Source: Bacteroidaceae bacterium (GTDB taxonomy: Bacteria > Bacteroidota > Bacteroidia > Bacteroidales > Bacteroidaceae). Taken from it: a stretch of DNA of 40,791 bases. The notes under the pieces are model-generated. The model was not told where the DNA came from. It saw only the letters and a list, made by a program, of their open reading frames with translations, and made no database searches. Location of the stretch: positions 1 to 40,791 of the forward strand of contig JAFXGX010000030.1 in NCBI GenBank assembly GCA_017536695.1, written 5' to 3'. Made by a program: the position numbers and the translations under genes. Positions 149 through 6,260 of this stretch are shown here, in pieces. Each line of letters opens with the position of its first letter. The stretch's first letter is position 1.

Positions 149-1621
149 TCATTTAACCAATACCTTGCGACCACCTACAATGTAGATACCGGGAGCGGTG
201 ATAGTCTCTACGCGGCGGCCTGTAAGGTCGAAGATGGCTTTCACATTTCCGTTTTCACCTTTCACCTCGTTGATGCCAGTTGTGCCCTCCCAGTCGAAAC
301 CATAGAATGCAGCAGACAGATTTGCAACATTACCGGCAGGCAAATATGCCTTATTAGCATTATTCTTGAAACGGCCATCTTCCAATCCGCTTGTTGTAGC
401 CTTATAAAGACCTACTACACCATCAATAATACCAAGTACATAAGCCTCACCCGCAACAGTCTTGTCGTAAAGCGTACCCGTCAAAAGATTTTCATCAACA
501 TCAGCATAATTCTCGGTTGAAGTTGAATATGCAAATTCATAATCAGTATTAGCCGGTGCCTTTACAATAACAGCAGTTTTCGCTGGCAGCACACCAGCAA
601 TCTGCGTCAAATGAACATTGCCAGCCACAGTGCTGGGTGTTGCAATAAACACACCATTTCCTTCACCGTCGATTACCGGAATTTCAGCATCAAAGCCAAG
701 ACATAGAGTCGCATAACCGGTCGCACCAATGCTAAGAGTGTGAGAAAAATCCGTAATCTCTGTAAACACATATTGATTACCTAGGCCACCACCATTCCAA
801 CCTTTCACTTTACCGCTACCATCAGTTGAGTGCAAGCTGCAATCTGCACCAACTTTCTTTATATAATACTTACCATCAGCCGAAGTTTCTGTTCCAATCT
901 GTGTTATAACCTCATATTGACCGGGCGCAGTCTCACTCATATTTACAAAATCATTATTGCCTGTTAAAACATCAATATAAAGTCCTGTATGTATATTCTT
1001 AATATTATATACACCCATCGTTACCATTTCAAACTTCCAGTAAGCCCGTGTATCATCATCTGTACCATTATAGTACAAATCTGTTGTACCATCGGTCTTC
1101 TGGTAAAGGTATTTATTGAAATTATTACTAGAGTATGTTGTTAGCCTAAAAACCTTTCCATTGTATTCGTCATCATATTCAACCTCTATAAAACCCCAAA
1201 GACGTGGAATATCAAGCCATGCGGTTGATTCATGTGCAATACCATCATTACTATTATTATACATATAGTTACCACCTGATACAATTGCATATTTGCCTTC
1301 ACTGTTTGCCTGTCCTCCTGTATTACGGAGTTCAACAGTAAGAGCAGTACTATTAAATGTAAATTTACCTCCTGTGTACCCCAGATAATTCTTTGTTGTA
1401 ACTTCCTGGAAACCATTAGTAGTCTTTAGAAATACAGCAGCATCATCCTCATTTGATGACATGGCAACACTGCTGCCAGCTGTAGTTACTGCTACCCAAT
1501 GGTTCGTTCCGTGATCGCCTTTGATTTTGTAAAACTTGCCTACTTCCGGCTCTACGAAAGTCTGCGCCATTGCGCCTATTGTAATGAACAACGACGCGAT
1601 TAATAAAGTAAATTTTCTCAT
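149..1621 (-). CDS. Secreted protein with Bacteroidales C-terminal tail, function unknown
   Basis: The 490-residue product begins with a clean signal peptide (residues 1-19, charged MRK, hydrophobic core, cleavage near AMA-Q), so it is exported. The body is rich in Gly, Thr, Asn and Tyr and has repeat-like segments (for example GKFYKIKG near the start and GVYNIKNIHTGLYIDV in the middle), suggesting beta-rich modules of carbohydrate-binding type, though no family can be named with confidence. The last about 40 residues (INEV...FDLTGRRV...GIYIVGGRKVLVK) have the pattern common at the ends of secreted Bacteroidales proteins, often seen as a sorting or anchoring tail. It is a single gene with a -7 box about 55 bp upstream. 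No enzymatic motif was recognised. Confidence 0.85.
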   Translation of the reverse strand: MRKFTLLIASLFITIGAMAQTFVEPEVGKFYKIKGDHGTNHWVAVTTAGSSVAMSSNEDDAAVFLKTTNGFQEVTTKNYLGYTGGKFTFNSTALTVELRNTGGQANSEGKYAIVSGGNYMYNNSNDGIAHESTAWLDIPRLWGFIEVEYDDEYNGKVFRLTTYSSNNFNKYLYQKTDGTTDLYYNGTDDDTRAYWKFEMVTMGVYNIKNIHTGLYIDVLTGNNDFVNMSETAPGQYEVITQIGTETSADGKYYIKKVGADCSLHSTDGSGKVKGWNGGGLGNQYVFTEITDFSHTLSIGATGYATLCLGFDAEIPVIDGEGNGVFIATPSTVAGNVHLTQIAGVLPAKTAVIVKAPANTDYEFAYSTSTENYADVDENLLTGTLYDKTVAGEAYVLGIIDGVVGLYKATTSGLEDGRFKNNANKAYLPAGNVANLSAAFYGFDWEGTTGINEVKGENGNVKAIFDLTGRRVETITAPGIYIVGGRKVLVK

Positions 1622-1672: not shown

Positions 1673-1680
1673 CAAATGTA
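1673..1680 (-). promoter_or_regulatory. Bacteroidetes -7 box for the secreted-protein gene
   Basis: Read on the minus strand this is TACATTTG, an exact match to the TAnnTTTG consensus, about 52 bp upstream of the start codon at 1621. No convincing -33 TTTG/TTG was found at the usual 19-21 bp. A run of nine C at 1699-1707 lies in the spacer/upstream region. Confidence 0.5.
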
Positions 1681-1840
1681 ATCACAAGTTCACTTTTTAC
1701 CCCCCCCAATTGTTAATTTATGTTAAACGTACTAAATGCCTTCAACTTTAAAATTCCAAAGAACAAATGTGCCGCAAAAGTGTTAATAAGAGACTACAAA
1801 AAGAGATTGTCGACCACAATGCAACATGCCGCAAAAAGAC

Positions 1841-1872
1841 AAAAAAAACGTGGACAACTTTGCATTATCCAC
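1841..1872 (-). terminator. Intrinsic terminator of the candidate ncRNA
   Basis: On the minus strand GTGGA (1868-1872) pairs with TCCAC (1850-1854), extended inward by two A-T pairs past one mismatch, and after one G the transcript runs into eight U (complement of A1841-A1848). This is the end signal of the upstream structured RNA; the next gene starts only 220 bp further on and has its own -7 box. Confidence 0.65.
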
Positions 1873-2075
1873 TGATGAGGTCTTGGCGTTACCCGAAAGA
1901 AAGATAAGCAAGTTGCCCACGCTGCATACTGCGCGGACATCGACTTTGCTACTATTCTTTCTTTGATTCAACCGCCAAGTTTGACAAGGTTACCTTGCCG
2001 GAGCAAATGCTCCCATCAGTAAGATAGTAAAGTTAATGCACTTTATTTATGTCTTGGACCCATAGCGGGTCATAG
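1841..2075 (-). ncRNA. Candidate free-standing structured RNA, about 235 nt, family not recognised
   Basis: The minus strand here has no credible gene but shows a complete transcription unit: a perfect -7 box (2079-2086), then in 5'-3' order hairpins GACCC/GGGTC (arms 2067-2071 and 2057-2061), TAAAGT/ACTTTA (2040-2045/2028-2033), GGAGC/GCTCC with a 4-nt loop (2009-2013/2000-2004), CAAGG/CCTTG (1993-1997/1985-1989), and a long arm CGCCAAG...CTTGGCG (1973-1979/1882-1888) enclosing AAAGAAAGA/TCTTTCTTT (1956-1964/1896-1904). ACTGATG at 2014-2020 can pair with CATCAGT at 1871-1877 to close a three-way multibranch. A terminator with eight U ends it. I see no tmRNA, RNase P, SRP or known riboswitch core motif. 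It could be a new sRNA, a divergent 6S RNA, or an attenuating leader of the gene at 1621. Confidence 0.6.
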
Positions 2076-2078
2076 CTG

Positions 2079-2086
2079 CAAATATA
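2079..2086 (-). promoter_or_regulatory. -7 box of the candidate ncRNA
   Basis: The minus strand reads TATATTTG, a perfect TAnnTTTG match, placing transcription start near 2072-2075, immediately before the first hairpin. The upstream region is very AT-rich and no clear -33 element stands out. Confidence 0.55.
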
Positions 2087-2196: not shown

Positions 2197-3615
2197 TCAG
2201 AATCTGAAATCTCTCTCGCCGTTATCTATCTTCGAAAGATAATCAGCAGCCTTGGCACGCACCCTTTCGTTGGGGACATCACTGAGAAGACGCTTTATCA
2301 TGGCCTCTCCTTTTACCCTGGTATCGGGCGAAGCGTAGTCACGAAGGTACTCCTTTAGGGTGATGAGCGCATTGGGAAGACAGCAGTTCGATATCTGCCC
2401 GTTCTTGAGCAGTGTCATGAAACGGTCGCCGGTGCGCCCCTCGCGATAGCATGCCGTACAGAAGCTCGGGATGTGGTCAAGGTCAAGCAACCAGCCTACG
2501 ACCTCATCGAGCGAGCGATGGTCGGCAATGTCGAACTGTGCCGAGGAGTCATCGGGTGTCTCCTCCGTCACATAGCCGCCCACACTGGTACGCGAACCGC
2601 CACTTATTTGTGAAATGCCGAGCTCAAGCAGTCTCTCACGGCTTGCAGCACTCTCGCGGGTGGAGATTATCATACCGGTATACGGAACAGCAATCCTGAT
2701 GATTGCCACTATCCTGTAGAATATATCATCGGGAACGGCATTCTCAAAATCAGCAGTGTCAACATCATCGGCCTTACAGAGGCGCGGCACACTTATTGTA
2801 TGCGGCCCTACACCATAAGTCGCCTCAAGATGCTCGGCATGCATGAGCATGCCTATAAAATCGTAGCGATAGGTTTCAAGGCCAAAGAGAACCCCTATGC
2901 CTACATCATCTATACCGCCCTGCATGGCGCGGTCCATAGCCTCGGTGTGATAGGCATAGTCGCTCTTGGGCCCTGTCGGATGCAGTGCCTCATAGTTCTC
3001 CTTATTATATGTCTCCTGAAAAAGGATATAAGTTCCTATTCCTGCATCACGCAGACGGCGATAGTTCTCGACAGTGGTTGCAGCAATATTCACATTCACG
3101 CGACGTATCGCGCCGTTCCTGTGCTTTATACTGTAGATTGTCTTTATGCTCTCGAGGATATATTCAATGGGGTTCATTGTCGGGTGTTCGCCCGCTTCAA
3201 GGGCAAGGCGCTTATGACCCATATCCTGCAATGCCATAACCTCGGCACGGATTTCATCCTGGGTCAGTCTCTTTCGTCTGATGCTCCTGTTCTTTGCATG
3301 ATAAGGGCAATAGACACAGCCGTTGACACAGTAGTTCGAGAGATAAAGCGGTGCGAACATCACTATGCGGTTGCCATAGAAATGATGCTTGATTTCGTTG
3401 GCAAGCGAATATATGCGTTCAACTATCTCATGGTCATCGCATTCGAGCAGCAGGGCTGCCTCGCGGTGCGTTAGTCCTTTGAACGCTCGCGCCTTCTCGA
3501 GCACACTCTCAACGAGTGCGCGGTTGCCGCGGTTCTCACGTGCATACTCCATCGTCGCACGAATCTCGCTGTCACTGATAAACTCTGTTGCTATGGTTGA
3601 CTTGGGGTTATACAT
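2197..3615 (-). CDS. hydG: [FeFe]-hydrogenase maturase HydG (radical SAM tyrosine lyase)
   Basis: HydG cleaves tyrosine to p-cresol and dehydroglycine, giving the CO and CN ligands of the H-cluster. The 472-residue product has the radical-SAM CX3CX2C site (CVNGCVYC, Cys96/100/103) and the HydG-specific second cluster motif CX2CX22C near the C-terminus (CTACYREGRTGDRF, Cys386/389, then Cys412), which holds the auxiliary 5Fe cluster. Length is normal for the family, and the CTAC-YR-GRTGDRF signature separates it from the related ThiH. It follows hydE on the same strand with a 53-bp gap, across from the hydrogenase gene, and a strong terminator follows. HydF, the third maturase, is not nearby. 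Confidence 0.96.
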   Translation of the reverse strand: MYNPKSTIATEFISDSEIRATMEYARENRGNRALVESVLEKARAFKGLTHREAALLLECDDHEIVERIYSLANEIKHHFYGNRIVMFAPLYLSNYCVNGCVYCPYHAKNRSIRRKRLTQDEIRAEVMALQDMGHKRLALEAGEHPTMNPIEYILESIKTIYSIKHRNGAIRRVNVNIAATTVENYRRLRDAGIGTYILFQETYNKENYEALHPTGPKSDYAYHTEAMDRAMQGGIDDVGIGVLFGLETYRYDFIGMLMHAEHLEATYGVGPHTISVPRLCKADDVDTADFENAVPDDIFYRIVAIIRIAVPYTGMIISTRESAASRERLLELGISQISGGSRTSVGGYVTEETPDDSSAQFDIADHRSLDEVVGWLLDLDHIPSFCTACYREGRTGDRFMTLLKNGQISNCCLPNALITLKEYLRDYASPDTRVKGEAMIKRLLSDVPNERVRAKAADYLSKIDNGERDFRF

Positions 3616-4814: not shown

Positions 4815-6260
4815 ATGGCTGATAATAATAATGTAATGTTTGTGCGTTATAAACTTTTGAAGAAATTGGTTGCAATGTGGAAGGAAGATTCTCTCCTTGA
4901 CAAGATTGACAGTATGCCATACAAGATGTATCCACGCAATCAAAAGCCTAAAGGAAGATGCTGCATCCACAAGGAGCGTGCCGTAATCAAGTACAAGACC
5001 ATGGCTATGCTCGGTTTTACCATGCAGGATGAGCATAGCGAAATGGACCCGCTGAGCAGCTACGTACAGCGCATGATGCAACGCGAGAGAGTTGATATGC
5101 AGGACGGAGCAGTGCTCCATGTGATGGACGAGGCTTGTTCTTCGTGTGTGAAAATCAACTACGAGGTATCGAATCTGTGCCGTGGATGCGTCGCACGCCC
5201 ATGCTACACCAACTGTCCCAAGGATGCCATATACTACGACAAGAATGACAAGGCACACATTGACCACGACAAGTGTATAAGTTGTGGCAAATGTCATCAG
5301 GTGTGCCCCTACCATGCCATCATATACATGCCCGTACCTTGTGAGGAGGCATGTCCTGTAAAGGCTATCTCGAAGGATGAGTATGGTGTCGAGCACATCG
5401 ACCCCGAGAAGTGCATTTACTGCGGCAAATGCCTTAATGCATGCCCGTTCGGTGCCATATTCGACAAGTGCGAGGTATTTGACGTACTGAAGAAGATGCG
5501 CGAAGGAAAGAAGGTCATTGCCATGGTCGCACCGGCAGTGCTGGCGCAGTTCGGCAAGCCTATCGCACAGGTATACGGTGCGATGAAGGCAATTGGCTTC
5601 AGCGATATAATCGAGGTTGCCTACGGAGCCGAGGAGACTACCCGCCGCGAGGCCGAGGAGCTTAAAGAGAAGATTGAGGAAGGCCAGCCATTCATGACTA
5701 CAAGCTGTTGTCCCGCATATGTAAACCTTGCGAAGAAACATATCCCAGAGATTGTCAAGTACGTATCATCAACAGGTTCTCCCATGCACTACACGGCGAT
5801 ATATGCCAAGGAGAAGTTCGGTGAGGATTGCGTGACTGTATTCATCGCGCCATGTGCATCAAAGAAGGCCGAGGGATTCAATGACAAGAATGTGGATTTC
5901 GTGCTTACTTTCCGCGAGATTGACGCCATAATGCAAGGAATGGGAATAGACATTGAGAGTACCATGCCGTACACCCCCGAAGAGAGCGCTTGTGTCGATG
6001 CACACAATTTCGCAAAGACAACAGGAGTGTTTACCGCTGTCAAGCACCAACTGGGCGACGAGGGTCTTGAGGGTGTAGTGATAGCCGACCTTCACAAGAA
6101 GAATATCGCCATTCTTAAGGCATACGCCAAGACAGGCAAGTGCCCTGGCAAAATAGTCGAAGTAATGTCATGCCCAGGCGGATGTATAACAGGACCATGC
6201 GCATGCAGCGGTGGCGGTGAGGCAACACGACGTTTCGAGTCCGAGATTAAGAAGAAATAA
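4815..6260 (+). CDS. hydA: [FeFe]-hydrogenase catalytic subunit, probable group B type
   Basis: Catalyses reversible proton reduction to H2, most likely disposing of ferredoxin electrons in fermentation. The 481-residue protein carries the three H-cluster motifs: L1 TSCCPA (296-301), L2 IAPCASKK (344-351) and L3 EVMSCPGGCITG (449-460). Ahead of these are ferredoxin-like clusters: Cys108/111/122/125/130/134, Cys154/157/160/164 with Cys176/180, and Cys200/203/206/210. The motif variants (A-Y after TSCCP; IAPC in place of MPC) and lack of a NuoG-like N-terminus point to the group B enzymes common in gut Bacteroidetes rather than group A. The protein has no signal peptide, so it is cytoplasmic. 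It is divergent from hydE-hydG, which it needs for maturation. Confidence 0.95.
   Translation: MADNNNVMFVRYKLLKKLVAMWKEDSLLDKIDSMPYKMYPRNQKPKGRCCIHKERAVIKYKTMAMLGFTMQDEHSEMDPLSSYVQRMMQRERVDMQDGAVLHVMDEACSSCVKINYEVSNLCRGCVARPCYTNCPKDAIYYDKNDKAHIDHDKCISCGKCHQVCPYHAIIYMPVPCEEACPVKAISKDEYGVEHIDPEKCIYCGKCLNACPFGAIFDKCEVFDVLKKMREGKKVIAMVAPAVLAQFGKPIAQVYGAMKAIGFSDIIEVAYGAEETTRREAEELKEKIEEGQPFMTTSCCPAYVNLAKKHIPEIVKYVSSTGSPMHYTAIYAKEKFGEDCVTVFIAPCASKKAEGFNDKNVDFVLTFREIDAIMQGMGIDIESTMPYTPEESACVDAHNFAKTTGVFTAVKHQLGDEGLEGVVIADLHKKNIAILKAYAKTGKCPGKIVEVMSCPGGCITGPCACSGGGEATRRFESEIKKK

Follow-up and report, generated by a model that had tools for sequence, protein, structure and literature searches.

A multicopy RNA of Bacteroidota as a candidate pseudoknotted strand-exchange leader of mostly exported-protein genes

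The share of long 5' regions with a predicted known riboswitch is only about 2% in Bacteroides thetaiotaomicron, according to the available text of one study (PMC7366714). The described systems that come closest to the RNA studied here are transcription-attenuating riboswitches and leaders, with which it shares a structured 5' leader that contains a pseudoknot, competing helices and a U-run and is closely followed by a gene. It differs from them in that there is no Rfam match, that the downstream genes share no pathway, that the exchanged strand lies deep in an arm (P5) and not in the closing stem, and that the U-run is located inside an outer helix. Leader-peptide attenuation is a further point of comparison, as many copies have a tiny upstream frame.

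Among sRNAs, FopS and GibS of Bacteroides are likewise a multicopy Bacteroidaceae RNA family tied to outer-membrane proteins (PMC11697453, in its available text). They consist of a single-stranded 5' seed and a terminator hairpin, whereas our RNA is multi-helix and pseudoknotted; compared with FopS by description, its family consensus fold lacks this arrangement. Structured flavobacterial RNAs, some of them tied to secreted proteins, are described for Flavobacterium psychrophilum, with Rfp18 and 64 structured 5' regions (PMC9723704); our comparison follows the descriptions in the available text of that report only. The DUF805b RNA (RF02914) is a cis-regulatory Bacteroidota motif that occurs in the same leaders, and differs in being a 35-nt hairpin separate from our RNA. 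RF02914 matched 32-33 nt past the RNA end in L057 and L081, two of 20 loci scanned, and matched the RNA itself neither in these 20 loci nor in the DNA analysed here, so the published motif is a 3' neighbour in some copies. By eye, DUF805b-like text (GGUAC..GGAGUAACCCGAAAAGCCGG) is seen after the U-run in L123 (the same copy as L057), L134, L139, L106 and L116-L118.

6S RNA usually occurs in one or two copies per genome and is not tied to a downstream gene. Our element resembles it in being a long structured RNA with a predicted promoter of its own, and a divergent 6S RNA had been one of three proposals for its function. This proposal is not favoured: up to 14 copies were found in a genome, they lie before genes, and an arm with a tail that exchanges on P5 differs from the 6S fold. 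A 6S-Flavo search of the element's own genome gave no match, as did the same search of control genomes. In the searched literature, PMC2864571 and PMC10994844 included, no description of the RNA was found in the text available; subscription journals and supplements were mostly outside this search, and an earlier report may exist, e.g., among the 64 F. psychrophilum 5' regions.

The RNA element and its surroundings

The element is encoded on the minus strand at positions 1841-2086 of the window, by which we mean the whole analysed stretch of 40,791 nucleotides (contig JAFXGX010000030.1 of a Bacteroidaceae bacterium). The original prediction described a free-standing structured RNA gene with a -7 box, several stems, a long arm, a closing stem and a terminator followed by eight U, and each of these was located at its given place on the minus strand. 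The features are as follows, with the type of evidence in brackets.

2079..2086, minus: -7 promoter box TATATTTG of the RNA (sequence)
2057..2071, minus: 5' hairpin GACCC..GGGTC upstream of the RNA core (sequence and MFE fold)
2029..2043, minus: mini-hairpin HpB, here AAGTGCATTAACTTT, in the wide family AAAGC-GUUA-GCUUU (sequence)
2023..2031, minus: PK1 5' strand, with pseudoknot partner 1944-1954 (family partner permutation)
2014..2020, minus: P1 5' strand, closing stem (family covariation)
1983..2013, minus: hairpins H1 (2000-2013) and H2 (1983-1999), a genus-specific insert absent in L051 and L052
1973..1979, minus: P3 5' strand (sequence and covariation)
1955..1961, minus: P4 5' strand (sequence and covariation)
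1944..1954, minus: PK1 3' strand (permutation test and sequence)
1915..1938, minus: P5 hairpin; its 3' strand (1915-1922, with extension to 1911) can alternatively pair with the tail
1895..1901, minus: P4 3' strand (sequence and covariation)
1882..1888, minus: P3 3' strand (sequence and covariation)
1871..1877, minus: P1 3' strand (sequence and covariation)
1850..1872, minus: terminator-like local hairpin of the type-A sublineage, -9.9 kcal/mol, two bases (1871-1872) common to P1
1849..1858, minus: 3' tail, able to exchange onto the P5 3' strand (12 pairs, -18.9 kcal/mol)
1841..1848, minus: U-run of eight T (sequence)
about 1805..1817, minus: possible downstream tail partner, -12.0 kcal/mol, beyond the stretch of the original prediction
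1673..1680, minus: second promoter-like box TACATTTG before the downstream gene (sequence)
149..1621, minus: downstream gene, whose 490-aa product has a start resembling a signal peptide and matches RicinB_lectin_2
2197-3615, minus: upstream neighbour, a radical SAM gene with a BATS domain
4815-6260, plus: Fe-hydrogenase gene, beyond the radical SAM gene

For the -7 box we take TAnnTTTG to be the Bacteroidota consensus. The closing stem P1 reads ACTGATG/CATCAGT in the window, and P3 of the long arm reads CTTGGCG/CGCCAAG and encloses GAAAGAA/TTCTTTC. PK1 comprises nine pairs (-5.3 kcal/mol) in this copy, and GTGCATTA of HpB is alternatively complementary to TAATGCA of the tail region. The minimum free energy of the window RNA is -85.8 kcal/mol, compared with -59.3 (sd 4.65) in 200 dinucleotide shuffles, 0 of which were as low (z -5.69). 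The structure is therefore real, as had been claimed. ARAGORN found no tRNA and no tmRNA in the window, and the Rfam 15 scan of the window gave 0 matches at gathering score. A scan of 1621-2210 at E ≤ 10 returned weak matches only, far under gathering score, and in scans of the window and further loci (20 loci in one scan) the RNA was matched nowhere except weakly, with low scores.

A terminator scan of 1600-2300 found three sites, compared with 0.4 expected, among them the hairpin at 1850-1872 with its T-run. The helix of this hairpin is invariant across 10 aligned type-A sequences, the window's included (type A being the window form, see below). It overlaps P1 by the two bases predicted, at 1871-1872, from which a competition of closing stem and terminator had been suggested. 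The idea of a competition is right in spirit; the one conserved in the family, though, is for the P5 3' strand. In the window copy, pairing of this strand with the tail (-18.9 kcal/mol, 12 pairs) compares with -15.4 kcal/mol for the P5 arm.

Two further observations concern the flanks. A strong terminator-like site, a 17-pair hairpin followed by seven T, lies after the radical SAM gene at 2141-2178 on the minus strand. Just upstream of the box at 1673-1680, there is a C8 run on the plus strand (G8 on the gene strand) at 1700-1707; by eye, the G-run has a length of 8 in the window, 9 in L015 and L016, and 10 in L023. A G-run before the gene's own promoter-like box makes a phase-variable promoter possible.

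Distribution of the RNA family

By blastn, matches were obtained in 8 of 41 genomes, of which seven, counting the own genome, belong to the genus and one, with a weak 30-base match (L008), to another family. Two paralogous forms were distinguished, type A, which is the form in the window, and type B, which has just its 5' half and the CGCCAA strand in common with type A. A covariance model of the 5' core (R1), which carries the H1/H2 insert, revealed 19 copies in 15 of 44 genus genomes. It also matched 11 of 301 genomes in the family sample, every one in the genus, and three of 393 in the order sample, two of which (L051, L052) belong to another family, lack hairpins H1 and H2 and keep the remainder of the RNA. 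Restriction of the RNA to the genus was considered and rejected, since two other models, R2 and R3, matched far more widely; the range of R1 is too narrow because of the insert.

R2, a covariance model of the 3' half, matched 25 of 44 genus genomes, seven of nine in the family of L051 and L052, and six of 395 in the phylum sample at E ≤ 0.05. R3 was built from 26 diverse copies, none of them type A, and its tallies were taken at E ≤ 0.01 with the own genome counted in each, E-values of such newly built models being rough. Matches occurred in 38 of 44 genus genomes, in 114 of 295 genomes and 81 of 184 genera in the order sample, and in 45 of 345 genomes and 23 of 155 genera in the phylum sample. 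Copy numbers, with up to 14 in one genus genome, are lower bounds, because the 40-genome searches were filtered strictly and few candidates were scored per genome. R3 recovers the window copy at 58.2 bits. At E ≤ 0.05 it gives five matches in the own genome, i.e., the window copy, C107:15950-16113, C53:9160-9331, C56:184-359, and C19:50143-50367, the last one weak (E 0.004). Further R3 matches include L081 (G045:C123), L082 (G006:C11), L084 (G018:C65) and L091 (G010:C46). The family is thus patchy and multicopy in Bacteroidota, which speaks against the housekeeping-type sRNA that had been another of the three proposals.

In a contig pattern search, 18 of 20 matches were MAGs titled Bacteroidaceae or Bacteroidales; 15 matches name a host in the title, and all of these come from ruminant gut. 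The pattern matches L030, L046 and L050 look like chance text matches and were discarded. A hammerhead-like reading of CTGATGA in L051 was rejected as well, since this strand is P1 and its partner CATCAGT is present.

Members of the family were also identified on plasmid records of Bacteroides ovatus, B. finegoldii, Parabacteroides distasonis, and Phocaeicola massiliensis. A blastn search of plasmids and phages with copy L142 matched five plasmid records; with copy L114 it gave no match. Some copies lie at contig ends or form like-scoring pairs, e.g., in G046 on C91 and C77 (both 15-190) and in G012 on C59 (1593-1768 and 264375-264550), which suggests repeated DNA around them.

Conserved pairings and downstream genes

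Covariation was assessed in two alignments. A5 comprises 26 copies aligned with MAFFT and was built without structure information, and it already displays P1, P3, P4, and P5. In an unguided search of A5 for runs of complementary columns, the first four ranks went to P1, P4, P5, and the pairing between the tail and the P5 3' strand; P3 was sixth, and a pairing of 5' AAAAGCG with CGCUUUU of the tail was eighth. Across P1, P3, P4, and P5, 87.9% of 754 cells are paired in A5 and 24 of 30 pairs show changes on both sides; slid versions reach at most 45.0%.

For A6, an R3 search of 98 loci (404,571 bases; E ≤ 1e-4) yielded 99 matches, one per locus and two in L120, where two copies were known. The loci had been selected out of 234, mostly as the best match per genome, and A6 again contains 25 of the 26 seed copies. 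In A6, 95.1% of 2874 cells in these helices are paired (slid versions ≤ 44.0%), 28 of 30 pairs have both-side changes, and 813 both-side cells compare with 220 in shuffles; these counts lean toward the model, as A6 was fitted to R3, which does not apply to A5. P1, P3, P4, and P5 thus covary strongly in the alignments of the wide family, and constitute the kind of conserved structured domain that is found in riboswitches. The covariation proposed as a check is accordingly present at the level of the wide family, while among the type-A relatives of the window alone it is slight, with both-side changes in 2 of 37 pairs, not above shuffles.

Pairings outside the model were studied by exchanging partners among copies in 5000 permutations each; this test ignores kinship, which the displaced-region controls address only partly. 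PK1, formed by the strand between HpB and P1 and the strand after P4 5', has a mean of 14.6 vs 12.27 for exchanged partners (sd 0.29; 0/5000; n=97). Corresponding values are 21.2 vs 19.0 for the tail with the P5 3' strand (sd 0.19; 0/5000; n=99), and 15.1 vs 14.4 for the HpB 5' arm with the tail (sd 0.15; 0/5000; n=97). The tail also pairs with the segment 8-50 nt past the U-run (14.5 vs 12.36; sd 0.25; 0/5000; n=97), whereas the control segment 350-437 nt past it gave 720/5000. Finally, an outer helix joins the 55 nt before the RNA to the 26 nt after the U-run (14.83 vs 13.50; sd 0.25; 0/5000; n=94), compared with 2150/5000 and 4693/5000 in displaced controls (n=92). Five type-A rows (L004, L005, L015, L019, L022) were omitted from the outer-helix test, as the model start falls inside H1/H2 in these. 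Examples of outer-helix partners that are exchanged between copies are GTACGCACAT/ATGTGCGTAC, ATACGCGCAT/ATGCGCGTAT, and TACATACAT/ATGTATGTA.

A column test of the tail with the P5 3' strand was less favourable: 96.2% of 208 cells pair, while just three of eight pairs show both-side changes, a number equalled by 40 of 500 shuffles, and 74.5% still pair when the strands are slid by +2. The median energies in the family are nearly equal, -19.4 kcal/mol for the P5 arm and -20.0 kcal/mol for the tail duplex, which is what a switch would need. By sequence comparison, P5 and the tail helix are mutually exclusive structures of the kind that make up the expression platform of a riboswitch. The two pairings across the U-run imply that, in the family, one transcript should run through the supposed terminator. 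It is mainly for this reason, i.e., because sequence past the U-run belongs to the same folded molecule, that we call the family a leader.

Downstream frames were defined as the longest ORF of at least 50 codons with a start 5-400 nt after the U-run, and exported starts were recognized by a hydropathy heuristic. Such a frame follows in 86 of 99 copies, with its start at 42-100 nt in 54; 13 copies lack a frame of this length within 400 nt, and Flavobacterium-like copies are often more than 200 nt away from the gene. Starts of exported or membrane type were found in 68 of the 86 frames compared with 57 of 191 background frames (Fisher p 1.7e-14). These comprise 62 signal or lipoprotein peptides and six membrane segments, as opposed to 44 and 13 in the background; the remaining 18 frames look cytoplasmic. 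Gene position together with covariation across the U-run would place the RNA, like a riboswitch, in the 5' leader of the gene it controls. The description as free-standing is not supported for the family, given the close frame in 54 of 99 copies and a covariation that requires a read-through transcript.

A scan of 20 downstream proteins against Pfam revealed no common family, none being present in more than two. Ten proteins had no match at E ≤ 0.001, and eight had a match above the curated cut-off, to BACON, an outer-membrane barrel, WG repeats, BspA-type leucine-rich repeats, TonB plug, sortilin, and YCF48-like repeats (two). The sortilin-matching protein also has a weak T9SS tail. As the downstream proteins share no family, they suggest no ligand. 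Exceptions to export include copies on the plasmid records L235, L236 and L237, before DHFR-family genes (B. ovatus, P. distasonis) and a deaminase gene (B. finegoldii); the DHFR-family copies adjoin rteC, primase/helicase and topoisomerase genes. Near L098, another copy of the non-exported type, lies an rteR sRNA (RF04181). In L024 the frame after the RNA (MSFMKKFLSFIFGKI) ends early, and the gene behind the leader may be broken. In L179, L180, L182, L183, L187, L190, and L196 (family f124), a long frame is found about 220-320 nt downstream; that of L179 is a TonB-receptor plug protein by Pfam, and the other six begin alike.

The same observations bear on an unlikely alternative, in which a multicopy sRNA has its own promoter and terminator, acts in trans by base-pairing with other mRNAs, and lies before exported-protein genes only by coincidence. 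The promoter-like box, the local terminator followed by eight U in type A, and the multicopy nature would suit such an sRNA, and multicopy sRNAs do exist in Bacteroides (FopS, in the available text of PMC11697453). Against it stand the narrow distance to the gene start and the sequence after the U-run, which co-varies both with the RNA and with the sequence upstream of the RNA.

Many copies carry a tiny start-stop frame. A GCCTATG-like start lies at most 150 nt upstream in 43 of 99 copies and is absent in 56. Among 45 such ATGs, 39 reach a stop within five codons, compared with 27% of 1122 ATGs taken as controls. Exact GCCTATG occurs in 32 copies, and in these no more than four codons separate ATG and stop. 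The window copy, which is outside that count, has GCTATG with an eight-codon frame. In a GCGTAT..ATACGC subtype, the 5' arm of an upstream hairpin lies inside the tiny frame and the 3' arm of this hairpin serves as the outer-helix strand; folding could thus be affected by a ribosome. Codons for an amino acid that is the product of the controlled genes, as in leader-peptide attenuators, are not seen in these frames: they mostly have 0-4 codons, their sequences differ, and exported proteins follow.

A putative strand-exchange leader and its alternatives

We favour the reading, and consider it fairly probable, that the element is an orphan cis-regulatory 5' leader of the downstream, usually exported-protein gene, which acts as a pseudoknotted strand-exchange switch. 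Comparison of copies shows the helices, PK1 and the long-range pairings, as well as a location before mostly exported-protein genes; from these we infer the switching and its level of control, which would be transcription attenuation (or translation). Among the three functions originally proposed, the attenuator fits best, and the leader probably attenuates expression of envelope and secreted proteins.

In the proposed mechanism, P1, P3, P4, and P5 would build one long arm, and the strand 5' of P1 would fold back on the P4/P5 junction as PK1. The 3' tail mimics the P5 5' strand, such that the P5 3' strand could pair either with P5 5', leaving the hairpin closed and the tail free, or with the tail. 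During transcription P5 would form first and the tail would stay free. When P5 is opened, or when PK1 is favoured, the 3' strand of which lies next to lower P5, the tail may capture the P5 3' strand; the resulting G+C-rich helix directly before the U-run would stop transcription. If the polymerase passes, the tail would pair 8-50 nt downstream, and the outer helix would close the leader. Candidate triggers that may bias this choice are a ligand, an RNA-binding protein, or, in the many copies concerned, a ribosome on the tiny start-stop frame. For the sublineage of the window, a more independent RNA with its own termination is possible, due to H1/H2, the invariant local terminator and the second promoter-like box before the gene.

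A cis leader that does not switch is the other alternative of some weight, and we judge it improbable. It could be a 5' structure that enhances stability or translation, or a tag for the processing or localisation of mRNAs that encode envelope proteins, and an RRM-type protein may bind it. That the downstream genes are unrelated, with export as their sole common trait, and that a conserved outer helix closes the leader would accord with this; mutually exclusive pairings of equal energy that are kept phylogenetically, and a U-run after the exchange helix, are rather what a switch needs. A DNA-level repeat, i.e., a site of recombination or insertion with inverted repeats that only resemble RNA structure, would agree with the copies at contig ends or in like pairs (G046:C91, C77; G012:C59) and on plasmid or conjugative-element records, but is highly improbable, as orientation and gene distance are fixed and as one P5 pair is U-G in 84 of 98 cells, C-G in 13, U-A in 1 and a non-pair in 0, a wobble that indicates structure of the minus-strand RNA because the other strand would carry A-C.

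Returning to the strand-exchange leader, a wider conjecture, to which we give somewhat less than even chances, is that a Bacteroidota-wide multicopy RNA switch tunes a large share of the surface and secreted proteome to one global signal. It would do so via an inside-out architecture, in which the tail displaces a strand buried in a pseudoknotted arm, the outer helix encloses the U-run, and the start-stop micro-frame lets ribosomes join the decision. Bacteroidota are important gut and aquatic bacteria whose post-transcriptional control is poorly known. With matches in 114 of 295 order-sample genomes, strong covariation and a preference for exported-protein genes, the leader is a concrete candidate for broad envelope control. 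It yields a covariance model for searching transcriptomes and poses a new orphan-trigger problem.
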